A DNA stretch of 64,000 nt from a bacterium SCSIO 12643. Lineage in GTDB: Bacteria > Bacteroidota > Bacteroidia > Flavobacteriales_G > Salibacteraceae. Below the pieces are notes generated by a model. The model saw only the letters and a program-made list of their open reading frames with translations. It had not been told where the DNA came from and made no database searches. Positions 34,436 through 48,243 of this stretch are shown here, in pieces. The position numbers and the translations under genes were made by a program. How positions within the stretch are numbered: position 1 is the first letter of the stretch; each line of letters opens with the position of its first letter. The DNA is taken from contig CP073750.1 of the NCBI GenBank assembly GCA_024398135.1, positions 3,534,001 to 3,598,000 of the forward strand. The letters run 5' to 3'.

Positions 34436-37400
34436 ATGAAAAAGTTTTATAAGCTGCTTTTAGCAATTAGTTTGTTATTTGGTCTTAACCCATTGTATGC
34501 GAGTCACATATCTGGAATGAATTTTCAATATGAATGTGTGGGGCAAGATTCTTTTTTAATAACCTTAAATTTATACAGAGATTGTAGCGGGATTGCTGCT
34601 CCATCATTTATAAATGTAAATATTGGGAGTACATGTGGTAGTTTTAGTCCTCTTTTAAGTAAAGTTAATGGTCCTAATGGTTCTGATGTATCGCAAATAT
34701 GTCCGAATTATACTAATTCATGTAATGGAGGTAGCTTTGCCGGAATACAGAAACATGTTTATCAAGGAATAGTTGAATTGTCATTCTGTACCAATTGGAA
34801 ACTAAGTTTATCCTTATGTGAGCGGAATACCACAGTAAATATTGTGGGAAAACCTTGCACCTATATTGAAGCTGACCTATATACTGGTCACGGGAATTCT
34901 TGTAATAATTCTATATCATTTAGCTCTGTTCCAGTTCCATATGTGTGTTTGAATGAAGTGTTTAATTATAATTTAGGTGTGACAAATTTATATGGAGATT
35001 CTTTAACTTATCAATTTGTAAGCCCATTAATAACTTATAATACCTCTGTCTCATTTAATTCTGGATACTCATTTAATCAACCTATACCAGGAATTACCTT
35101 AGACACGATTTCTGGTCTAATGACTTTTACTCCAACAATATTGGGAAACTTTGCCTTGGCAGTTCAGGTATGTCAATATGAATATGGAACTGGTGTTTTT
35201 AAAGGGTGTATTACCAATGATTTTGAGTTTGTGGTGATTGACTGTAGCAATAATTTTCCACCTACTACTACCTCTACATTTGCTAATGTTCAGGGAGGAG
35301 GAACCCTCATTTCATCAGATTCCATTAGAGTCTGTGTTGGAGATACGATCTCTTTCGATGTATCATTTACCGATTCCAATTTAACTGATACGATTACTTT
35401 ATTATCAAATATTAACTCAGTACTGCCAGGAGCAAGTACAACTTTTGTATCTGGTAATCCAGCTACATTAAGTGTATCCTGGGTAGCACAACAAGGACCA
35501 AAGTATAATCCGTTTTACGTTACAGGTATGGATAACGCCTGTCCATATCCAGCTTTTTCTATGTCTACTTTTATGATTATTGTGGATTCTTCTACATTTG
35601 CCGGACCTGATTTAACGATATGTCAAAATAGTCAATGGGCTCAAATGGGGGCGTATGGTGGATCTTCATTCATCTGGACCGTACTTTCTGGTGATCCTAT
35701 TGATACTGTGGTTACTTCTCCTACATATAATGCGACATGTATGAATTGTCAATTTCCTAGCTTTTCACCCAGTAGCACTACGATTTATATGGTAACCTCA
35801 GTTCTTTCAACGAATTGTGTAAATACGGATACGGTTGTTGTCAATGTTGTTCCGGATTTTGATGTATTGATGCCAAATGATACGCTTATCTGTTCTATTG
35901 ATGATTATCGTTTACAAATTTCTACTGATCAACCCTCTTTTTCATATACTTATAATTGGTCCCCATCAAACTCTTTGGATTTTGATACGATAATGAATCC
36001 TTTGGCGACTCCATATGAACCTACTAATTATTCAGTAACACTATCCTCTTCTATGGGGTGTAAAAAAACGGGAGCTGTATTTGTAGACCTCTCGGCTCCG
36101 TTTCCTACTAATATGCAGGTTTTAGGAGATACTATACTGTGCTTTGGAGAGTCCTCTGATTTGAGTATTGATTTTGGGAATAGCTATGGATCGAATTGTG
36201 GGGGCACTTCTCAAGGATGCCTGGGGATAGTTCAAGATGGATATATAGGTACGGGGATGACTACTAATTCAGGAGCATATTTCCCTTCTATTTATGGTGG
36301 TTCGCGCTGGGGAGCCAAGCACCAAATTATTTATAGACCCAGTGATTTAATTAGCATGGGGCTTGCTCCTGGGGGGATGTTAAATTCTATTGCATTTTTT
36401 GTAAATACTGTAAGTTCTCAGAATGTATATGAAAACTTTGAAATCAAAATAGGTTGTACTTCTCAGATGGATCTTTCGAATGGGTGGATTACATCAGGTA
36501 ATATGACCATTGTAGTACCATCTTATACTCATACTGTAAATACTGGTTGGAATATACATAGTTTTATAAACTCTTATAAGTGGGACGGAATATCTAGTTT
36601 AATTGTTGAGGTTTGCTTTAATAATTCTCAAAGTGTATACCAAGGGAATTGTCTTATTCCTTATACTTCTACGAATTATCAGTCCGTTGTTTACCAGGTA
36701 GCTAATGATTCTTCTGTTTGCCAATTATACAAATCGGTTGGCGGGTTCTTTGGTGCGGCAACTTTGACGAATCAACGTCCAAATACACGTTTTAACTTTT
36801 GTGTAGGGTTTGACACGAATTCATTTACCTATTCTTGGTTGCCCACTTCGAATTTTACAACGCCAAATTCAGCAACTTCTAAGGTAACACCATTAACCAG
36901 TCAGAATTATCAGGTTATAGTTAAAGACTCTGGTAATTATTGTACGGATACATTGGATTACCACATAGATGTAGTGAATCAATTTGATGTGAGTTTTACA
37001 TCAAATTCGCCTTATTGTTTAAATGATGGCCAAGATACTTTACTTCCAAATATTGGAGGCGGATATTTTTTAGGATTAGGAGTGGATTCCAATGGCATAT
37101 TTTATCCAGATTCTGCAGGAGTTGGAAGTAAGCAGATAACATATCGTATTGATGACCCTGTTTTGTGTGCTGATGATACCACGATAAATGTTACAGTAGT
37201 TTCCCTTCCCGATGCTTCGTTTGATTATGAAGAGATTTGTGTTGGGTCTGGACCAGTTGTTTTAAATGCGGTGAATTCGGGAGGACTTTGGACCGGGATA
37301 GGGATCTCAGATACTTTAAACGGTATTTTCGATCCAATTGGCTTATCAGCGGGATTGTATCCAATAGTACATTTTATAGATTCTAACTGTGTTAATTCTG

Positions 37401-38452
37401 ATACAATTAGTATTAAAGTAGTTACACCGTATACTTTTACATTGAATCAGAACCCTATTTCTGTTTGTCAGAATGAGATTGTTCAATTAGTTCCGAATTA
37501 CACACTTTCAAATAACCCTTTACAAGGATCTGGACCGGTAAAAGAGTCGTGGAGTGATGTGAACGGCTTCATAGATTCAAATGGTGTTTTCGATGCAAGA
37601 ATGCTCTATTCAGGGAATGTGTATCCGGTTTTATTAACTGTTGAAGATTCATTGGGAGGATGCGGTAGTTCTCAGAATGTTTACGTTAGCATTGACACAG
37701 TTTATTTGCCAGTTGTTCTAATGGATTTATCGTATTGTATTGGTCATTCTAATGTTTTAATAGATATTAACCCAAATCTGTTTGATAATCAGATATCATT
37801 TAATCAAAAGCCTTTGCCGCCATTAAATCTTAATGATACCCTAATGATTTCATCGATGAACAATAAAGGTATGTTTAATCCATTAGTAAGAGGATTAGGC
37901 AGTTGGGAAATAACAATTAATAGAGTTAATTTAAACGGTTGTATTGGGACAATTGTTGATACTATTCATGTTTTATCTCCTCCGACTAATGATACAGTGA
38001 ATCAAAGTGGATCTGTGTTAATGGCTGATTTATCTGGAGGATATACTTATCAATGGTTAGATTGTGATAACAATATGCAACCGATTCAAGGAGCAACCGG
38101 GCAATCATTTATTCCTTCAGTTACTGGAAATTATGCCGTAAAAATTAGTGCAGGGGAATGTTCCATTACTTCATCATGCTATGAATCCTGGCCTTTAGGA
38201 TTAGAAGAGAACTCAATTGAAACAGGACTTAAACTATATCCAAATCCTACAAACGATGTTTTATACATCAATAAAGGTTTGAATGATGAACTGAATATTG
38301 AAATATTGGATTATACAGGAAAAACCATTTATTATTCAAATACTATGGATCAGATAACTGAATTTAAAATGCAGGATTTAGCATCAGGGATGTACTTTAT
38401 TAAATTAAGTAATGAGAAAGGAAGTTATGTGGAGAAAGTAGTGAAAAAATAA
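34436..38452 (+). CDS. Giant T9SS type-A secreted protein, copy A
   Basis: A 1338-residue secreted protein. The signal peptide (about 1-22) is followed by an N-terminal domain common in bacteroidete surface proteins (SHISGMNFQYECVGQDSFLITLNLYRDCSG), then several Ig-like beta modules with paired cysteines. A central block (about 575-790) holds GAKHQIIYRPSDLISMG, LNSIAFFVNTV and NQRPNTRFNFC. Further repeats contain short phrases such as DSNGIFYPDSAGVGSKQITY. It ends with a T9SS type-A sorting domain (about 1262-1338): LKLYPNPTNDVLYIN, IEILDYTGKTIYY and DLASGMYFIKLSN. Enzymatic motifs are not seen, so a role in adhesion or a surface layer is likely. The paralogue follows after 27 bases. Confidence 0.85.
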   Translation: MKKFYKLLLAISLLFGLNPLYASHISGMNFQYECVGQDSFLITLNLYRDCSGIAAPSFINVNIGSTCGSFSPLLSKVNGPNGSDVSQICPNYTNSCNGGSFAGIQKHVYQGIVELSFCTNWKLSLSLCERNTTVNIVGKPCTYIEADLYTGHGNSCNNSISFSSVPVPYVCLNEVFNYNLGVTNLYGDSLTYQFVSPLITYNTSVSFNSGYSFNQPIPGITLDTISGLMTFTPTILGNFALAVQVCQYEYGTGVFKGCITNDFEFVVIDCSNNFPPTTTSTFANVQGGGTLISSDSIRVCVGDTISFDVSFTDSNLTDTITLLSNINSVLPGASTTFVSGNPATLSVSWVAQQGPKYNPFYVTGMDNACPYPAFSMSTFMIIVDSSTFAGPDLTICQNSQWAQMGAYGGSSFIWTVLSGDPIDTVVTSPTYNATCMNCQFPSFSPSSTTIYMVTSVLSTNCVNTDTVVVNVVPDFDVLMPNDTLICSIDDYRLQISTDQPSFSYTYNWSPSNSLDFDTIMNPLATPYEPTNYSVTLSSSMGCKKTGAVFVDLSAPFPTNMQVLGDTILCFGESSDLSIDFGNSYGSNCGGTSQGCLGIVQDGYIGTGMTTNSGAYFPSIYGGSRWGAKHQIIYRPSDLISMGLAPGGMLNSIAFFVNTVSSQNVYENFEIKIGCTSQMDLSNGWITSGNMTIVVPSYTHTVNTGWNIHSFINSYKWDGISSLIVEVCFNNSQSVYQGNCLIPYTSTNYQSVVYQVANDSSVCQLYKSVGGFFGAATLTNQRPNTRFNFCVGFDTNSFTYSWLPTSNFTTPNSATSKVTPLTSQNYQVIVKDSGNYCTDTLDYHIDVVNQFDVSFTSNSPYCLNDGQDTLLPNIGGGYFLGLGVDSNGIFYPDSAGVGSKQITYRIDDPVLCADDTTINVTVVSLPDASFDYEEICVGSGPVVLNAVNSGGLWTGIGISDTLNGIFDPIGLSAGLYPIVHFIDSNCVNSDTISIKVVTPYTFTLNQNPISVCQNEIVQLVPNYTLSNNPLQGSGPVKESWSDVNGFIDSNGVFDARMLYSGNVYPVLLTVEDSLGGCGSSQNVYVSIDTVYLPVVLMDLSYCIGHSNVLIDINPNLFDNQISFNQKPLPPLNLNDTLMISSMNNKGMFNPLVRGLGSWEITINRVNLNGCIGTIVDTIHVLSPPTNDTVNQSGSVLMADLSGGYTYQWLDCDNNMQPIQGATGQSFIPSVTGNYAVKISAGECSITSSCYESWPLGLEENSIETGLKLYPNPTNDVLYINKGLNDELNIEILDYTGKTIYYSNTMDQITEFKMQDLASGMYFIKLSNEKGSYVEKVVKK
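38225..38268 (+). repeat. Direct repeat in sorting-domain DNA, copy A
   Basis: These 44 bases are identical to 42239-42282 in the downstream paralogue. They encode the start of the T9SS sorting domain (GLKLYPNPTNDVLYI). Confidence 0.85.
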
Positions 38453-38479
38453 TCTGATTTAACCTTAATTTTTATCACG

Positions 38480-41400
38480 ATGAGAAATATTAATATGAAA
38501 AAGAAAACATTGTATCTAGTTTTAGTTTTGGTTGCTATTCTAGGAACAAATAGGGCTAAAGCCACGCATATGGAAGGGGGATATTTCGAATACGAATGTT
38601 TAGGGAACGATTCATTTTTAGTAACCCTTAAGATATTTAGAGAATGTACAGGTATGTCATATCCTACAACTGTAGATATAAATTTCACCAATTCGTGCGG
38701 AGATAGTCTAATAGCACAGTTTAATGGAGTTGGGACTGAAATTTCGCAAATATGTCCTTCAGGAGTATCAACCTGTAATGGAGGCTTTTTAAAAGGTAGT
38801 CAAGAATTTGTTTATCAAGGTTTTGTGGTTTTGAGCTCATTTTGTGGAGATTGGACAATGTCTTGGATGAGTTGTTGTAGGAATTCCCCAATTGTTAATT
38901 TATTCTCTGGTGCTAATGTAAACATTAAAGGAACAATTAATAATACGGGAAACTATTGTAATAATTCACCACAATTTGGGGATTTTCATGTTCCAGTATT
39001 TTGCCTTGGCCAAGAAGCATATTATAATGTATCGGCAAGTGAACCCGATGGAGATTCGTTAACATATAAATTTATTTTACCAACAGATAATTCTGGAGCG
39101 CCAGTAGTATTTAATTCCGGTTATTCATATAATCAACCTATATCAGGTATCGTACTAAATTCGCATACGGGACAACTCAAATTTACACCAGGTATAATTG
39201 GAACATTTGTAATGGCGATTCAGGTTTGTGAGTATGAATATGGTTCAGGAATTTTAAAAGGTTGTGTGATTAAAGAATTTCAAATTGTTGTAGAAAGTTG
39301 TTCTAATCAACAGCCTAGCCCTCCAGTATCAGGAATTACAAATTTTCAGGGTACTGGAATTCTATTAAACTCGGATTCAATATGGGCGTGTTCTGGAGAT
39401 TCAATTTCATTTGATCTTGTTTTTACCGATACTAATTTATTAGATACAATATCTCTGTTTTCTAATGTTACGGAGGTACTTCCCGGAGCCATAACGACTA
39501 TTACGAATGGAAATCCAGCGGTGATTTCTATATCATGGAATGTTCCTGCTGGAATACCCCCTTTTAACTCTTTTACGGTAACAAGTCATGATGATAATTG
39601 TGGGTATGTAGGTTTGGCCATATCTTCTTATCAAGTTATAGTGAATTCTGTAAACGCTGGACAAGATAAGTATTTATGTGATGGTGATTGGGTGGATATG
39701 AAGGCTACAGGAGGTGTGACTTATTTTTGGCAGGCAATCGCAGGTGATTCTATAGATACTATTCCTAATTCCTTAGGATATAATTCAACCTGTCAAAATT
39801 GTCAGTTTCCATCATTTTCACCAGACACCACCACCACATATGTGGTGATCTCCAGTTCGAATGTAAATTGTATAGTAATGGATACGGTAACTGTAAATGT
39901 ATCTCCAAATTTCAATATTACCGTACCCAATGATACAATGATTTGTCCGGATAGTAATTATTTGATTCAAGTGTCTACAGATCAACCATCATTATCATAT
40001 AATTACAGATGGTATCCTATAGCTTATTTGGATTCATATACATTACAAAACCCTCGGGCTAATGTATTTGAGGCCGTTCAATATAGAGTTATTGCAACAT
40101 CATCAGGTGGATGTCAGAGAGTAGATTCAGTATTGATAGAGTCTTCTCCGGCATTCCCTTCAAACATGAAAATTATAGGAGACACCGTATTGTGTTTGGG
40201 AGATACGTTACAATTGGGAGTAGATTTAGGGAATGAGTTCCCAGATATAAATTGTGGTACTTCTATTGCTAGTTGTTTAAATACATCACAGAATGGAATA
40301 ATCGGAATGGGTTCTACTCAAAATACGAATAACGCTTTCCCTTGTGTATATGGTGATTCTCAATATGGAGCAAAGCATCAAATGCTTTACAGATCTGACG
40401 AATTAATAAATATGGGATTGAATATTGGAGGTTTAATAAATTCCATAGCATTTTATGTGGATACGATAGGAGCGGCAGCCGTATATGAGGATTTTGTGAT
40501 TAAGATGAAGTGTGTTAATGATACTGATTTGATTAACGGTTGGGGAAGTAATTTGGAAGTGGTTGCTTATGAAAGTTTATATTCAATTACTTCTGGTTGG
40601 AATGTACATAATTTAGCTACTTCCTATCAATGGGATGGATTCTCTAATATCTTGGTGGAAGTGTGTTTTAAGAATAATTCGCAAAGTAATATGAATCCTA
40701 TAATGGCTCATTCTCAAACTGGGTATGTTTCAGTCATATATCAAACCGGAAATAATAACTGTCATATATATAAAACCTTATCTAGTGGAGGTTTAATGAT
40801 GAGTAGTTTACGTCCGAATACAAGGTTTAATTATTGTAATTCTTATGATTCCAATTTATTTACATATTCTTGGTCACCGTTAAATAATGTGAATAACCCT
40901 AACATAGCCAATCCATTTGCAGTTCCTTCTGTGAGTGGTACATATGAGGTTACAGTTTCGGATTCATATTGTTATGATACGTTAGATTTATTTGTAGACG
41001 TAGTAACACAATTTGATGCTGGATTTTATTCTCAAGAACCATATTGTGAAAATTTTATTCAAGATCAATTTACAACAAATGTAGGTGGGGGGTATTTTAC
41101 AGGTCCTTTTATAGATTCTAATGGGGTATTTTATCCTGATTCAGCAGGAGCAGGTAATTTTTTGGTAACCTATCATTTGGACAATCCTACATTATGTGCT
41201 AATGACTCATCAATTAATATTGAGGTTCTTTCTGTTGTTGAACCAACCATATCATATGATGAAATATGTGTGAACAGTGGAATAAGAGAATTACATGCTA
41301 CACCAGCAGGAGGAATTTGGGCAGGTGCGGGTATCATAGATTCGATTGGAGGACTGTTTGATCCAACGGGCTTGCCGTTTGGAATGCATGAAGTATATTA

Positions 41401-42466
41401 TACCATTATAGATTCTAATTGTATCAGTATTGATACTATGGATATTAAATCTCATAATGAATATGATTTTTCTTTAACTCAGAGCCAAATAGTAGCTTGT
41501 AATAATGATACGGTGGATCTAAGAAATTACGTTTCTATTTCTCCTTTACCTTATACGGAACCTATTATAACATGGTCTATTAATTTAAATATAGATTCTG
41601 TTGGAGTATTGGATTTGAATGCTCTTAACTCCGGACTTCATAATGTTATTGTTATGGTATCTGATAGTAATGGATACTGTTCCAAATCTGACACTATAAT
41701 ACTCAAAGTACGCGCAACTAATCCTCCTGATGTAACGAGTGAATTGAATTACTGTGATAATAATGAGGATGTTGTAATCAATGTTATTCCTAAACTATTT
41801 AATCCAGGGATGTCCTTCCAACAAACAAGCCTTCCTCCGTTGACGATAGCTGATACCTTACAGATCTTTAATACTAATAATCAAGGTATGTTTAACCCTT
41901 CTGTTCAAGGAATTGGTAGTTGGGAAATTAAGATTGACTTTGAAAATGTACTTGGTTGTATTGGTACGACAATAGATACAATTAATGTTTATCCAGGCAT
42001 ATATAATGATACGGTATTAAAAACTGATACAAACCTATTGGCAGCTTTATCAGGACATACATATCAGTGGTTGGATTGTGATAATAACATGAGTTATATA
42101 ACAGGAGCAATTTCGCAATCTTTTTCACCAGCATTATCAGGAAAATATGCTGTAGAAATTAGTAACGGTTATTGTTCAGTAGTTTCTGATTGTTATCATT
42201 TTTGGCCTTTGGGAGTAGAAGATAACTTTATCGAAACTGGACTTAAACTATATCCAAATCCTACAAACGATGTTTTATACATTGATAAAGGTGTGAATGC
42301 AGAATTGAATATAGAAATATTGGATTATACAGGAAAAACCATTTACAATGCAATTTTGAGAGATCAGATAACCGAATTTAAAATGCAGGATTTAGCATCT
42401 GGTATATATTTCGTTAAATTGAGTAATGAAAATGGGAGTTTTATCGATAAAGTTGTAAAGTATTAA
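38480..42466 (+). CDS. Giant T9SS type-A secreted protein, copy B
   Basis: A 1328-residue paralogue of the gene just upstream, with the same order of parts: signal peptide (an ATG at 38495 is an alternative start), the N-domain THMEGGYFEYECLGNDSFLVTLKIFRECTG, Ig-like modules, the central block GAKHQMLYRSDELINMG with LRPNTRFNYC, and the type-A sorting domain. The proteins align end to end but differ at many positions in the middle, while the sorting domains are nearly identical. The short gap suggests co-transcription. It arose by tandem duplication; the number of differences suggests this is not recent, except for the homogenised C-terminus. Confidence 0.85.
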   Translation: MRNINMKKKTLYLVLVLVAILGTNRAKATHMEGGYFEYECLGNDSFLVTLKIFRECTGMSYPTTVDINFTNSCGDSLIAQFNGVGTEISQICPSGVSTCNGGFLKGSQEFVYQGFVVLSSFCGDWTMSWMSCCRNSPIVNLFSGANVNIKGTINNTGNYCNNSPQFGDFHVPVFCLGQEAYYNVSASEPDGDSLTYKFILPTDNSGAPVVFNSGYSYNQPISGIVLNSHTGQLKFTPGIIGTFVMAIQVCEYEYGSGILKGCVIKEFQIVVESCSNQQPSPPVSGITNFQGTGILLNSDSIWACSGDSISFDLVFTDTNLLDTISLFSNVTEVLPGAITTITNGNPAVISISWNVPAGIPPFNSFTVTSHDDNCGYVGLAISSYQVIVNSVNAGQDKYLCDGDWVDMKATGGVTYFWQAIAGDSIDTIPNSLGYNSTCQNCQFPSFSPDTTTTYVVISSSNVNCIVMDTVTVNVSPNFNITVPNDTMICPDSNYLIQVSTDQPSLSYNYRWYPIAYLDSYTLQNPRANVFEAVQYRVIATSSGGCQRVDSVLIESSPAFPSNMKIIGDTVLCLGDTLQLGVDLGNEFPDINCGTSIASCLNTSQNGIIGMGSTQNTNNAFPCVYGDSQYGAKHQMLYRSDELINMGLNIGGLINSIAFYVDTIGAAAVYEDFVIKMKCVNDTDLINGWGSNLEVVAYESLYSITSGWNVHNLATSYQWDGFSNILVEVCFKNNSQSNMNPIMAHSQTGYVSVIYQTGNNNCHIYKTLSSGGLMMSSLRPNTRFNYCNSYDSNLFTYSWSPLNNVNNPNIANPFAVPSVSGTYEVTVSDSYCYDTLDLFVDVVTQFDAGFYSQEPYCENFIQDQFTTNVGGGYFTGPFIDSNGVFYPDSAGAGNFLVTYHLDNPTLCANDSSINIEVLSVVEPTISYDEICVNSGIRELHATPAGGIWAGAGIIDSIGGLFDPTGLPFGMHEVYYTIIDSNCISIDTMDIKSHNEYDFSLTQSQIVACNNDTVDLRNYVSISPLPYTEPIITWSINLNIDSVGVLDLNALNSGLHNVIVMVSDSNGYCSKSDTIILKVRATNPPDVTSELNYCDNNEDVVINVIPKLFNPGMSFQQTSLPPLTIADTLQIFNTNNQGMFNPSVQGIGSWEIKIDFENVLGCIGTTIDTINVYPGIYNDTVLKTDTNLLAALSGHTYQWLDCDNNMSYITGAISQSFSPALSGKYAVEISNGYCSVVSDCYHFWPLGVEDNFIETGLKLYPNPTNDVLYIDKGVNAELNIEILDYTGKTIYNAILRDQITEFKMQDLASGIYFVKLSNENGSFIDKVVKY
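42239..42282 (+). repeat. Direct repeat in sorting-domain DNA, copy B
   Basis: Identical to 38225-38268. Similarity continues to the stop codon with few changes. Confidence 0.85.
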
Positions 42467-42575: not shown

Positions 42576-44783
42576 ATGATCAGACGTTTCTTTCGTAATT
42601 TGTCGTTGTCAACCCGAGTATTGATCGGGGTCCTATTAGGAGTCGCTACCGGACTATTTTTTGGTGAGATGGTAGGCTGGATGTCCGTTGCCGGGGATGT
42701 CTTTATTGGTCTATTGCAAATGACTGTACTTCCATACATTATGATTTCGCTTATTGTGAATATTGGAAGACTGAGCATGGAGAATGGAAAGAAACTCATC
42801 CGATATGGGTTGATGTTTTTAGGACTTTTACTTGGGATAGGCTTATTAGGTTTATTTGTATTTCCATTGGCGTTTCCGGAGTGGGGAAGTGGTAGTTTTT
42901 ATTCTAATGATTTTATCCTTCCGGCACATGAGTTTGATTTTGTAAAACTATATATACCAACAAATCTCTTTGAGTCTTTAGCTCTAAATGTGGTCCCTGC
43001 TGTGGTGTTGTTTAGTATTTTCTTAGGATTGGGAATCATGAAATTACCCAATAAAGAAGTATTGCTTCAGCCTTTAGAAGTTATTAATGATGGATTGAAT
43101 CAGGTAAATAAAATGGTAGTAAAAATCACTCCAATTGGTGTATTCGCTATTGGAGCTGGAGTGGTTAGTCAGCTGAGTTTATCCGATTTAAGTAGGTTAC
43201 AGGGGTACTTGCTGGTTTATTTACTGGCAGTGTTGATTCTAACATTTGTGATTTTACCGTTTGTCATTTCCGTATTTACTCCGTTTTCTCCAAAAGAAGT
43301 TTTACGAATTACCAGACCTACTCTGATCACCATTTTTGCAACTGGAAAGATTATCGTGGTTTATCCGCAATTGATTGAAAACATTAAGGAAATTTTAGCT
43401 TCCAGGAATCAGGATTCTGAAGTAGCCAAATCAGAAGTGGATATTCTAATGCCTTTGGCTTATCCTTTTCCAAATCTGGGGACATTCATGATTTTCGTAT
43501 TTGTCCCATTTGCGGGATGGTATACCGGACATGCTTTTATGCTCAATGATTACCCATTATTTCTGAGCTCAACCTTGTTGAGTTCATTTGTAGCCCCAAT
43601 TACGGGTTTGCCGTTTAGTTTAGATCTAATGGGAGTTTCGAAAGAAACCTTTCAGCTATTTGTAGTTTCAACCGTTTTGACTGATCGAATTCGGGTGGTA
43701 TTGGGAGCATTTCATTTAGTAACGTTAACCTTATTAACGATCAGCGCCAGTAATGGTTTTATGAAAATCAGGTGGGGGAAACTATCTCAAACGATATTGG
43801 TTACAGCATTAATTATGGGAGGTTCCATATTTGGTCTAAACAAAATACTGGATAAAAGTATGGGAAGTATACCAACTAACGCTGAAATTTTAGACAGCTT
43901 TGAGTTGGTAAATCATACCGTTGATTATACAGTAATAGATAAGCCTACTCGAAACCCGAATTGGTTGAGAAAGTCTGAAAATATTATGGGAAGACTTAAA
44001 AGACGTAATAAACTACGTGTTGGATATTATCCGAATAGTATGCCATTTGCCTTTGAAAATTCAAAAGGAGAACTGGTTGGATTTGGAGTGGATATGGCAC
44101 ATCAATTGGCTACTGATTTGGGTGTAACATTAGAGTTTGTTCCCATAGAGAAGGGAAAAATTGTGGCGTGGTTGAATAAAGATTATTATGATATCGTCAT
44201 GTCAGATATATTCTTATCCAGCGAATATGCAGAGCAAATGAGTTTGTCGAAATCATATATGGAGATTTCATTGGCATTGCTTACAAAGAATGATTACAAT
44301 GACTTAAATACGTTTGAATCAGCATCAGCATTAGATTCATTCACTATAGCCTATTTTGTTAGAAAGGAGATAGCAGAAGACTATGTGTCATTTTTCCCTC
44401 AGGCTGGGTTATATGATATAGCCAATTATGATTCTTTATTCAGTATATCAGATACCGATTCGATTCAGATTGATGGTTTATTGACATCTGCTGAACGTGC
44501 TTCAGCGTGGACAGTATCTCATCCGGATTATAAAGTAGTCAACCCGCTGCCATATCACTTATATAATACTTTAGTGTATCCTTTAGCCAATGATGAAGTA
44601 TGGAGAGAGTATATCAATAGATGGATTGATTTTAGAAAGAATGACGGGACTTTTGATCGAGCGTATAAGCAATGGATTTTAGGAAAGGAATATCGACAAG
44701 ATACAGGCGTGTGGTGTATTTACAACGATGTTTTAGGTTACGGGCAACACAAAAAACATGCTCCGGAGAATTCAAATAAATAG
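42576..44783 (+). CDS. Dicarboxylate-symporter-like protein fused to a solute-binding domain
   Basis: A 735-residue fusion. Residues about 1-395 resemble the sodium:dicarboxylate symporter family (DctA/GltP), with about eight membrane helices and two re-entrant-loop regions. Residues about 403-421 (SQTILVTALIMGGSIFGLN) add a further membrane helix, which would place the C-terminus outside the cytoplasm. Residues 472-705 form a family 3 periplasmic solute-binding domain: KLRVGYYPNSMPFAFENSKGELVGFGVDMAHQLATDLGV, then DIVMSDIFLSSEYAEQMSLSKSYM. Canonical symporter motifs are altered: the serine-rich loop reads FATGKIIVVYP, the NMDGT site reads FPNLGT (298-303), and TM8 reads TDRIRVVLGAF. It may capture an amino acid or organic acid, or act as a sensor. 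The family assignment is good; transport activity is uncertain. Confidence 0.85.
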   Translation: MIRRFFRNLSLSTRVLIGVLLGVATGLFFGEMVGWMSVAGDVFIGLLQMTVLPYIMISLIVNIGRLSMENGKKLIRYGLMFLGLLLGIGLLGLFVFPLAFPEWGSGSFYSNDFILPAHEFDFVKLYIPTNLFESLALNVVPAVVLFSIFLGLGIMKLPNKEVLLQPLEVINDGLNQVNKMVVKITPIGVFAIGAGVVSQLSLSDLSRLQGYLLVYLLAVLILTFVILPFVISVFTPFSPKEVLRITRPTLITIFATGKIIVVYPQLIENIKEILASRNQDSEVAKSEVDILMPLAYPFPNLGTFMIFVFVPFAGWYTGHAFMLNDYPLFLSSTLLSSFVAPITGLPFSLDLMGVSKETFQLFVVSTVLTDRIRVVLGAFHLVTLTLLTISASNGFMKIRWGKLSQTILVTALIMGGSIFGLNKILDKSMGSIPTNAEILDSFELVNHTVDYTVIDKPTRNPNWLRKSENIMGRLKRRNKLRVGYYPNSMPFAFENSKGELVGFGVDMAHQLATDLGVTLEFVPIEKGKIVAWLNKDYYDIVMSDIFLSSEYAEQMSLSKSYMEISLALLTKNDYNDLNTFESASALDSFTIAYFVRKEIAEDYVSFFPQAGLYDIANYDSLFSISDTDSIQIDGLLTSAERASAWTVSHPDYKVVNPLPYHLYNTLVYPLANDEVWREYINRWIDFRKNDGTFDRAYKQWILGKEYRQDTGVWCIYNDVLGYGQHKKHAPENSNK

Positions 44784-44788
44784 CAAAT

Positions 44789-44822
44789 AAAAAAGGTCGC
44801 ACAATTTGTACGACCTTTTTTA
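44789..44822. terminator. Bidirectional terminator
   Basis: AAAAAAGGTCG (44789-44799) pairs with CGACCTTTTTT (44811-44821), with A and T tracts on either side. It separates the symporter fusion gene from the convergent EGKCG lipoprotein gene. Confidence 0.9.
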
Positions 44823-44843: not shown

Positions 44844-45209
44844 TTATTTACCCTCTCCACATTTTCCTTCACCACATTTGTGCTCACCTTCTGCAGTAGA
44901 GTCAGCAGAATCGCCACATTTTCCTTCGCCACATTTGTGCTCACCTTCTGCAGTAGAATCAGCAGAATCACCACATTTTCCTTCTCCGCATTTACCTTCA
45001 CCACATTTGTGATCTCCTTCTCCTTCAGCGTGTGCATCTGCAGCATCAGCCTCAGCGTTTGCTTCGTCAGCAGCTGGAGCTGCCTCATCATGTTGCTCTG
45101 TGTGTGCTTCTTCACCATGAGATTCTCCACCACCTCCACAAGAAGTAAGTGCAACAGAACCTGCAAAGAATAAAGACGCAGCAACCATTGATAGTAATGT
45201 CTTTTTCAT
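44844..45209 (-). CDS. EGKCG-repeat lipoprotein, HvfA-like candidate metallophore precursor
   Basis: A 121-residue protein. Its signal peptide ends in the lipobox LTSC (Cys24), followed by GGGGES, so it should be lipid-anchored. Residues 30-66 are rich in Ala, Glu, Asp and His. The tail (67-121) repeats EHKCGEGKCG units separated by DSADSTAEG. There are four EGKCG motifs (71-75, 76-80, 95-99, 114-118) and three HKCG motifs, and all seven cysteines after the lipobox lie in KCG. EGKCG motifs are known in Haemophilus HvfA, where the MNIO enzyme HvfB with HvfC turns the cysteines into copper-binding oxazolone/thioamide groups. No MNIO gene is in this window. Unmodified metal binding is an alternative. 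The gene is monocistronic between the symporter fusion and a flavoprotein gene. Confidence 0.85.
   Translation of the reverse strand: MKKTLLSMVAASLFFAGSVALTSCGGGGESHGEEAHTEQHDEAAPAADEANAEADAADAHAEGEGDHKCGEGKCGEGKCGDSADSTAEGEHKCGEGKCGDSADSTAEGEHKCGEGKCGEGK
44857..44970 (-). repeat. Two tandem 57-base repeat units in the EGKCG gene
   Basis: Units 44857-44913 and 44914-44970 differ at only a few bases, and a partial third unit follows. Each encodes 19 residues (GDSADSTAEGEHKCGEGKC), so gain or loss of units stays in frame and would change the motif number. Confidence 0.88.
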
Positions 45210-45321: not shown

Positions 45322-48243
45322 TTATTTAAGCGCTTTAAACAGTAATTCTACGGGATGATATGCCGTTTCGTTCACCCCATCTTTTATTTGATGCCTGCAA
45401 CTTGTACCAGGTGCTGCAACCACAGTTTTCTCGTTTTTATTTCGAATAGTAGGAAATAAAACAAGTTCTCCAATTTTCATAGAAACATCATAGTGCTCAT
45501 ATCCAAATGAACCAGCCATACCACAACATCCGGAAGGGATTGTAGAAACTTTGTATCCTGAAGGAATAGAAAGCATCTTTTTTGTATAGGTAATAGACGA
45601 TAGCGCTTTTTGATGGCAATGACCATGTAACGAAATATCTAAATCAGAATCATTAAATAACTCCGAAGAAATATGACCCTGATCAAATTCATTGGCAATA
45701 AACTCATCAATCAGAAAAGAGTGCTCTTTATTGATATTTGCCTTTGATTGTAGTTCTTTCTTTACCAGTTTAGGATATTCATCTCGGAATGTAAGTAGCG
45801 TGGAAGGTTCAATACCGATTATAGGAATTTTTGATTTCGCGTAATAATAAAAAAGTTCGGTATTCTCATTTGCCAATTCATTAGCTAATTTCAGAAATCC
45901 TTTGGAAATAGCCGTACGACCGCTTTCCCTATGCTGGATGATTTCAGCATCATATCCTAATGCCCACAGTAATTGTAATGACTGGACACCTTGTTGGACA
46001 TCCAAATAATTGGTGAATTCATCACAAAAAAAGAGTACTTTCTTGATGGGACTTTTCAACCATTTTGTTTTTTCAACCTGGTGATTGATTTTGTACCATT
46101 GAAACAATGATTGTTTTTGAGGCATTGGAATTTCTCGCTCTTTCGCAATCCCCATTTGTTTTTTTACCCAGTTTTTTAACGGGCCGTCAACCACCCAGTT
46201 GGAAATTGGATAAAAATTTTGGGCCAATTTCATGTTATCAGAGAAATGTGCCATTTTATGTTTGGCAAAGGAAATAGGCTCCGTTAAACTCTTCTGATAT
46301 AAATATTCACTTTTATATGTAGCCATGTCCACATTACTTGGACATTCTTGTTGACAGCCTTTGCACATCAAACACAACTCCATAGACTGATTCAGTTCAG
46401 GGGAAGAAAAAGCTCTTTCTTCACGTTGTGTCATGAGTTCACGTAACAAATTCGCACGAGAACGGGTAGTGTACATCTCGTCTCTGGTAGCCATGTAAGA
46501 AGGGCACATGGTACCTCCGGTTAGTTCTGTTTTTCTACAATCCGCAGAACCATTGCACAGTTCTACGGATTCTAAAAAACCATTGTGTTTTGAAAAGTCA
46601 AATACGGTATCAACAGGTTTAGGATTTTGCCCTGGAGCATAGCGTAATTGGGTATTCATAGATGGTGAATTCACAATTTTACCCGGATTAAAAACTCCGT
46701 TTGGATCCCAAACATTCTTTAAACGTTTAAAATCATCATAAATCTCTTTCCCAACCATTTGAGAAATAAACTCGCCTCTTAATCTACCATCACCATGTTC
46801 GCCACTTAATGATCCTTTATGTTTTTGAACCAGATCGGCAATATCCTGAGCAACTGTTCTAAACAACTGATTCCCTTCTTCAGTTTTTAAATTGATCATT
46901 GGACGTAAATGCAATTCTCCGGAACCAGCATGTGCATAGTGGACACAGCTTAAGTTGCGTTCTTTAAGCTTTAGATTAAACTCTTCAATATAATCAGGTA
47001 AATCTTCTACGGAAACGCAGGTATCTTCAATTACAGGAACTGCTTTTTCATCACCGGGAATATTCGCCAACAATCCCAATCCTGCTTTTCTGAGTGCCCA
47101 AACTTTTGAAATATCAGAGGTTACCAGTGGAAAATGATATCCATAATTATTCTGATTCATTTCTTTTCGGATGTCATCTGCGACTTGTTCTAGTTCCTCA
47201 TTAGAATCTGCATGAAGTTGAATTGCTAAAAGTGCCTGTGGATCACCTTGAATAAAAAAGCGGTATCTACTATATAACGGATGGTCCTTGGTACATTCCA
47301 AAATGTGATGATCCATTAGTTCAACAGCATATGGATGATATTTTAAGGCAATTAAATTGGCTTTTAAAGCTTCATTTACTGAGGTGTAATGACCCACCAA
47401 TAATCCCTGAACAGAAGGGGGAAGTGGATTGATTCCAATTTTTATTTCAGTGATAAATGCAAGTGTTCCTTCGCTACCTGCAATTAGATTACAGAAGTTA
47501 AATTTCCCTGTTCCTTCGTTGAAGACTTCAGATTGCATCAAAATGTCTAGTGCATATCCTGTATTTCTTCTTTTGATTTCCGGTTTAGGGTAATTGGCTT
47601 TGATTTGTGATCTTTTGGATGAATCGCCAAGTAGATGATAAATATGTCTGTAGATATTCCCTTCTAAATTATCCTCTGGTAATGCAAGTTTTTCCTGAAA
47701 CGCGTTTGCGTCTAATTCTTTAAAAACAACTTGAGAACCATCACTTAAAAAAGCTTTAACTTCTAAAAGATGATCTCGTGTACTACCGTAAACAATAGAA
47801 TTTGATCCGCACGAGTTATTCCCGATCATACCTCCAATCATGGCACGATTGGAAGTGGAGGTTTCTGGGCCAAATAAAAAGCCTTTTGGTTTTAGGAAAT
47901 AATTAAGCTCATCACGAATCACTCCAGGTTCTACCCGCACCCAATTTTCATGAGTATTAAGCTCTAAGATGGAGGTGAAGTATTTCGAAACATCAACTAC
48001 AATTCCCGATCCTACAACCTGACCTGCAAGAGAAGTTCCAGCGGTCCGAGGAATCAAGCTGACTTTATTTTTTTGCGCAAATTGAATCAGCTTTTGAATA
48101 TCTGATTCACTTTTTGGAATAGCAACGGCTAACGGGATTTCTCTATATGCAGAAGCATCAGTGGCATAAATGATTTTGACCGCTGCATCTGTATGAAATT
48201 CTCCTTGAAGTTGAGAAGAGAGTATTTCTAAATCCTCAATCAA
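45322..48243 (-). CDS. FAD/4Fe-4S D-2-hydroxyacid dehydrogenase-like protein
   Basis: A 973-residue fused flavo-iron-sulfur enzyme (GlcD plus GlpC type, like YdiJ). The FAD-binding PCMH domain (about 35-220) has PRTAGTSLAGQVVGSGIVVDVSKY and MIGGMIGNNSCGSNSIVYG. The FAD-oxidase C domain contains HAGSGELHLRPMINL and GSLSGEHGDGRLRGEF. The iron-sulfur part has CRKTELTGGTMCPSYMATRDE and CLMCKGCQQECPSNVDMATYK. The CCG-type end has HGHCHQKAL and SGCCGMAGSFGYEHYDVS. The likely substrate is D-2-hydroxyglutarate or D-lactate, passing electrons to quinone. It overlaps the DinB-like gene upstream by 4 bases. Function within the class is inferred. Confidence 0.92.
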   Translation of the reverse strand: MIEDLEILSSQLQGEFHTDAAVKIIYATDASAYREIPLAVAIPKSESDIQKLIQFAQKNKVSLIPRTAGTSLAGQVVGSGIVVDVSKYFTSILELNTHENWVRVEPGVIRDELNYFLKPKGFLFGPETSTSNRAMIGGMIGNNSCGSNSIVYGSTRDHLLEVKAFLSDGSQVVFKELDANAFQEKLALPEDNLEGNIYRHIYHLLGDSSKRSQIKANYPKPEIKRRNTGYALDILMQSEVFNEGTGKFNFCNLIAGSEGTLAFITEIKIGINPLPPSVQGLLVGHYTSVNEALKANLIALKYHPYAVELMDHHILECTKDHPLYSRYRFFIQGDPQALLAIQLHADSNEELEQVADDIRKEMNQNNYGYHFPLVTSDISKVWALRKAGLGLLANIPGDEKAVPVIEDTCVSVEDLPDYIEEFNLKLKERNLSCVHYAHAGSGELHLRPMINLKTEEGNQLFRTVAQDIADLVQKHKGSLSGEHGDGRLRGEFISQMVGKEIYDDFKRLKNVWDPNGVFNPGKIVNSPSMNTQLRYAPGQNPKPVDTVFDFSKHNGFLESVELCNGSADCRKTELTGGTMCPSYMATRDEMYTTRSRANLLRELMTQREERAFSSPELNQSMELCLMCKGCQQECPSNVDMATYKSEYLYQKSLTEPISFAKHKMAHFSDNMKLAQNFYPISNWVVDGPLKNWVKKQMGIAKEREIPMPQKQSLFQWYKINHQVEKTKWLKSPIKKVLFFCDEFTNYLDVQQGVQSLQLLWALGYDAEIIQHRESGRTAISKGFLKLANELANENTELFYYYAKSKIPIIGIEPSTLLTFRDEYPKLVKKELQSKANINKEHSFLIDEFIANEFDQGHISSELFNDSDLDISLHGHCHQKALSSITYTKKMLSIPSGYKVSTIPSGCCGMAGSFGYEHYDVSMKIGELVLFPTIRNKNEKTVVAAPGTSCRHQIKDGVNETAYHPVELLFKALK

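Follow-up and report, generated by a model that had tools for sequence, protein, structure and literature searches.

EGKCG-repeat proteins are best described from the HvfA/oxazolin systems (Buf_EGKCG) of Haemophilus and its relatives, in which HvfB is the MNIO enzyme and HvfC its DUF2063 partner. The modification on HvfA is now assigned as a 5-thiooxazole, replacing the earlier oxazolone/thioamide assignment (PMC13097082, PMC13419390), and an earlier note on the DNA analysed here, which had still assumed oxazolone/thioamide groups, has to be amended in this respect. Lipidated members of the family are known as well: the lipidation of NedA from Neisseria dentiae, an EGKCG RiPP-lipoprotein, has been demonstrated experimentally, and NedA, which is accompanied by NedB (an MNIO) and NedC, undergoes a modification of -4 Da at each EGKCG (PMC12636315). 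Lastly, Buf_EGKCG genes without an MNIO were reported for 67 of 2583 genomes (PMC12452194, Table 3), for which the authors presume either an activity independent of the post-translational modification or a loss of function (PMC12452194).

The window, a stretch of 64,000 nucleotides from a member of the Bacteroidota, encodes an exported protein of this kind, referred to as protein A in the following. The features of its gene and immediate surroundings are:

44844..45209, (-) strand: protein A, a KCG-repeat predicted lipoprotein of 121 aa, from the list of open reading frames, with an ATG start
45138..45209, (-) strand: signal peptide and lipobox LTSC, by sequence pattern only, with Cys24 (codon 45138-45140) as the predicted lipidation site
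45012..45137, (-) strand: acidic linker, aa 25-66 (42 residues), rich in E/D/A/H, from the sequence
44847..45011, (-) strand: repeat tail, aa 67-121, from the sequence
44857..44993, (-) strand: 57-bp tandem repeat (19-aa unit) in 2.4 copies within the tail of A (Tandem Repeats Finder, 93% matches)
44788..44822, (-) strand: terminator-like hairpin just 3' of the stop codon of A, common to the convergent transporter gene (consensus scan: 16-pair stem and T-run)
45322..48243, (-) strand: FAD-oxidase/4Fe-4S fusion (YdiJ/GlcD-like), upstream of A on the same strand (Pfam and NCBIfam)

The tail reads HKCGEGKCGEGKCG...HKCGEGKCG...HKCGEGKCGEGK and contains EGKCG four times and HKCG three times, so that all seven tail cysteines lie within KCG; the open reading frame at 44844-45209 (-) thus matches the description in the earlier note (lipobox at Cys24, acidic/His linker, four EGKCG and three HKCG motifs) in every point. 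The repeats are not a product of chance, as they are matched by the NCBIfam model NF050137 (KCGExKCG_twice, 'HvfA family'; E 3.7e-15, 55.3 bits against a cutoff of 19.5), and as the genome contains 11 instances of a degenerate codon pattern for KCGEGKCG, all of them within three genes, but not one of the reversed control pattern. The likeness to HvfA repeats that had been read from the letters is therefore borne out by the model. The full-length HvfA equivalog model NF050188 gives 38.7 bits for A, below its cutoff of 95. We rejected the idea that this places A outside the family, since the canonical, MNIO-linked HvfA proteins of sister genera also stay below that cutoff (47.6 and 30.3 bits). 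A Pfam scan of protein A returned no domains, and the protein is of low complexity and expected to be disordered.

No cognate modifying enzyme is encoded beside A, where the neighbours are the FAD/Fe-S oxidase, a DinB_2 gene and the transporter. The oxidase, which is not a metal gene, and the DinB_2 gene are conserved neighbours; the oxidase adjoins A throughout the genus, and the gene order is identical in the two loci compared (L047 and L048). Copper or metal-resistance genes are likewise not found among the neighbours. The transporter gene (42576-44783) is itself unusual in joining a secondary transporter and a binding protein: it is a single 735-aa gene with a sodium:dicarboxylate symporter domain (PF00375) and a C-terminal solute-binding domain (PF00497). 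Farther along, at 34436-42466, lie two neighbouring secreted paralogues, which are 1338 and 1328 aa long; a C-terminal sorting domain for type IX secretion is present in the second.

The earlier note had remarked only that an MNIO gene is not next door, and the result is stronger than that. The window genome is a closed single contig of 4,118,273 bases with a completeness of 97.9%, and a search with the MNIO model PF05114 yielded no match in it, nor in any of the three genomes sampled for the genus (G000, G001 and G002; two of the three are draft MAGs), which also contain no DUF2063 partner (PF09836). These searches work, as within the taxonomic family each model matches 20 of 35 genomes, and these are the same 20 for both. 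Likewise, BLAST with two MNIO proteins of relatives returned nothing significant in the window or in the genus's KCG loci, while the same queries identified an MNIO gene in five of five gammaproteobacterial KCG loci.

This genus is an exception. Among the Bacteroidota outside it, all 17 genomes with a match to the KCG model also have an MNIO, namely 13 of 13 in the order and the other four of four among 392 evenly sampled genomes from the phylum. Of the family genomes outside the genus, 12 have no MNIO, and these yield no KCG match, be it with the model or with protein A as query, so that other lineages without the enzyme are also without the substrate. Orthologues of A do occur in uncultured Flavobacteriales records, in agreement with the description of A as a Bacteroidota version of the family.

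Protein A is not alone. The genus has three exported KCG proteins, A, B and C, each present in all three species. The orthologues of A in the two other genomes are 110 and 105 aa long, share 56-59% identity and are found behind the same FAD/Fe-S oxidase gene; all three retain the LTSC lipobox, by pattern only, while their linkers have kept their composition and diverged in sequence. Protein B has 120 aa in the window genome (C1:1539122-1539481), and its orthologues in the two other genomes are 56-61% identical. Protein C, a putative lipoprotein of 162 aa encoded before clpB, has 21-23 cysteines and a KCG tail and appears metallothionein-like from its sequence; it is found in three of three genomes, in one of which it is cut by a contig end, whereas no similar lipoprotein was found beside clpB in 14 flanks from other genera. 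Between C and clpB, at L043:8955-9257, we also observed an exported Cys-rich protein of 100 aa (CDKCKDGKCDGKC...GCGKH) without KCGEGKCG, which is possibly a fourth metal-binding protein.

The surroundings of B suggest how this situation arose. A DUF2147 gene lies divergently beside B in each of the three species. In two sister genera, g8 (G022) and g12 (G029), a similar DUF2147 gene is divergent from a canonical hvfA, which is followed by the MNIO and its partner. B thus sits in the genomic position of hvfA, and the expected place of hvfBC beside it is intact and taken by other genes in three of three species: 3' of B follow a Tat-type gluconate-2-dehydrogenase-subunit-3 gene and a GMC oxidoreductase (L044:9123-11888). 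Because B adjoins the DUF2147 gene just as canonical hvfABC does in two sister genera, the simplest reading is that hvfBC was lost and hvfA retained in the window genus. In a tree of ClpB, a single gene, the genus falls among g3, g8 and g12, all MNIO-positive genera (clade support 99/95), although the fork that unites it with g9 is weak (82/47). A gain of the MNIO elsewhere is less likely than its loss here, given this position among MNIO-positive genera and the DUF2147-hvfA arrangement that the genus has in common with two of them. The retention counts as a single evolutionary event, observed in three genomes.

The retained proteins also differ from MNIO-linked precursors in their N-terminal region. 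In 23 of 24 such precursors, a segment LG-x-x-[E/D/Q]-[L/I/V]-R (LGSGxELR) lies between the signal peptide and the first KCG; it is found in none of the eight sequences of A, B and C from the genus. The lone exception is a short precursor of 93 aa (L064, L076) from G053, a genome of the same class as the window genome in which an MNIO is present. Conversely, two of the three KCG proteins of the genus (A and C) are lipoproteins by pattern, whereas none of the 24 MNIO-linked precursors inspected has a lipobox. HvfA without its signal sequence is barely modified, which indicates that the N-terminal region matters for modification (PMC13419390), and the LGSGxELR segment may be a recognition site.

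With both the enzymes and this segment missing, the HvfB-type modification that the earlier note had proposed for A finds no basis in G000, G001 and G002. That note had named beforehand, as the observation that would speak against its proposal, the absence of MNIO genes from this genome and from relatives with the protein, and this absence is what we found; a co-occurrence of A with an MNIO in relatives, for which the note had suggested looking, is lacking in three of three genus genomes that carry A. Its idea that HKCG might be a second form of the motif was also given up, as MNIO-linked precursors of the family carry HKCGEGKCG, too. Its proposal that A is tethered rather than released, by contrast, remains plausible in view of the lipobox pattern.

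The tail of A has nevertheless been maintained. Between G001 and G002, it shows no nonsynonymous and seven synonymous changes (dN 0, dS 0.36), compared to 21 synonymous and eight nonsynonymous changes in the rest of A, and the four tail cysteines that can be aligned in three species are all conserved. By this codon comparison, the tail is under purifying selection, although low-complexity tails can also be retained for other reasons. Synonymous divergence in A is low, while it is saturated in a neighbour gene, and the codon bias in four-fold families is 0.56 for A versus about 0.3; together, and with the counts being small, this hints at high expression. Other repeats have been less stable: in G002, motifs of B have drifted to HKCSGEKCSKCHHPE, with one repeat now being KCSGEKCSKCHH, and a repeat of C has become KCGEGKCAEAKCGHG. 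The drifted motifs in B of G002 and in C include KCSGEKCSK and KCAEAKCGHG, and the drifted repeats of B and C in G002 look like ordinary, generic metal sites.

We consider it reasonably probable that A is an unmodified, lipid-anchored, thiol-based binder of soft metals, most likely of Cu(I), in a genus that is devoid of HvfB and HvfC and has an enlarged set of three KCG proteins. The genus would have lost both HvfB, the MNIO, and the partner HvfC, while the set of KCG proteins was kept and enlarged to three. The KCG cysteines of A, B and C would then serve as free thiols, and in A, the lipid anchor and the flexible acidic linker would position a series of KCG sites either in the periplasm or on the cell surface. 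Soft metal ions, with Cu(I) as the likeliest, would be bound there, and A would be a buffer instead of a released metallophore. Cu(I) is our first guess because modified relatives bind it (PMC12452194, PMC13097082); with metal-resistance genes absent beside A, the case for copper rests on this family analogy. A comparable architecture exists in the relative G009, where a lipoprotein combines an acidic/His linker with a heavy-metal-binding domain from Pfam; the gene pair upstream of it looks like CusAB in our reading of the sequences.

Other explanations have to be weighed against this one. The main functional rival follows from the fact that A and B both adjoin flavin oxidoreductases: a YdiJ/GlcD-like flavin/Fe-S oxidase precedes A, and the gluconate-2-dehydrogenase-subunit-3/GMC oxidoreductase pair follows B, each in three of three species. 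If these links were functional, the repeats might not be for metals; they could, for example, buffer the thiol redox state or form disulphide cross-links at the envelope. We regard this as unlikely, since the oxidoreductases beside A and B are of unrelated types, C lacks a neighbour of this kind, and its metallothionein-like character points to metals. A modification of the KCG cysteines by a non-MNIO enzyme that replaced HvfBC appears less probable still. It would account for the near-constancy of the KCGEGKCG core in A and in the end part of B, which is stricter than free-thiol binding seems to require, but the three loci share no candidate enzyme gene, B of G002 and C show drifted motifs, and the precursor segment of MNIO-linked relatives is gone. 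Finally, the organism might possess an MNIO/partner pair on a plasmid or in a gap, as a one-contig assembly could miss a plasmid and completeness is 97.9%. With both other genus genomes being equally free of MNIO and DUF2063, and with the hvfBC place beside B occupied by other genes throughout, we give this very little credence.

That the three species keep these proteins in the absence of the enzyme suggests that the repeats can be useful without modification, their job probably being metal binding. More tentatively, and with some doubt on our part, EGKCG repeats might be a metal-binding module in their own right; the three proteins left after the loss of the MNIO would form a partly lipid-anchored thiol buffering system, and the thiooxazole would be an optional upgrade and not the reason for the motif. 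The window genus offers a clean natural experiment in this respect, as its enzyme has been lost, selection has preserved the substrate family, which has also grown, and the whole operon is present in sister genera; such matched modified and presumably unmodified proteins would allow the contribution of the thiooxazole to metal binding to be measured. It also implies that the NCBIfam name 'oxazolone/thioamide-modified RiPP metallophore', for which the repeat is the sole basis of assignment, may misdescribe such proteins.

Compared with the known systems, A resembles HvfA/oxazolin in being exported, in its EGKCG/HKCG repeats and in its NF050137 score above the cutoff, but differs as a predicted lipoprotein without LGSGxELR, from a genome and genus in which the MNIO and its partner were not found. 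It shares a lipoprotein signal (by pattern in A) and EGKCG repeats with NedA, but not the NedB/NedC-type enzymes. Its layout as a thiol- and His-rich extracytoplasmic lipoprotein is that of HMBD (PF19335) lipoproteins, and the cysteine density of C is similar to that of bacterial metallothioneins; unlike both groups, A has no Pfam domain, and its tail cysteines are all within KCG repeats. A further parallel is offered by the MNIO-less Buf_EGKCG genomes (PMC12452194), where, as here, an EGKCG protein occurs without an MNIO. Why this is sometimes so was left there as a presumption, and the window genus bears on the question. While lipidated and MNIO-less EGKCG members were thus already known, what the genus adds, as far as the literature was searched, is the genus-wide retention of three proteins and their enlargement as a set after enzyme loss, the synteny that supports this loss, the absence of the leader segment and the evidence that the tail is under selection.
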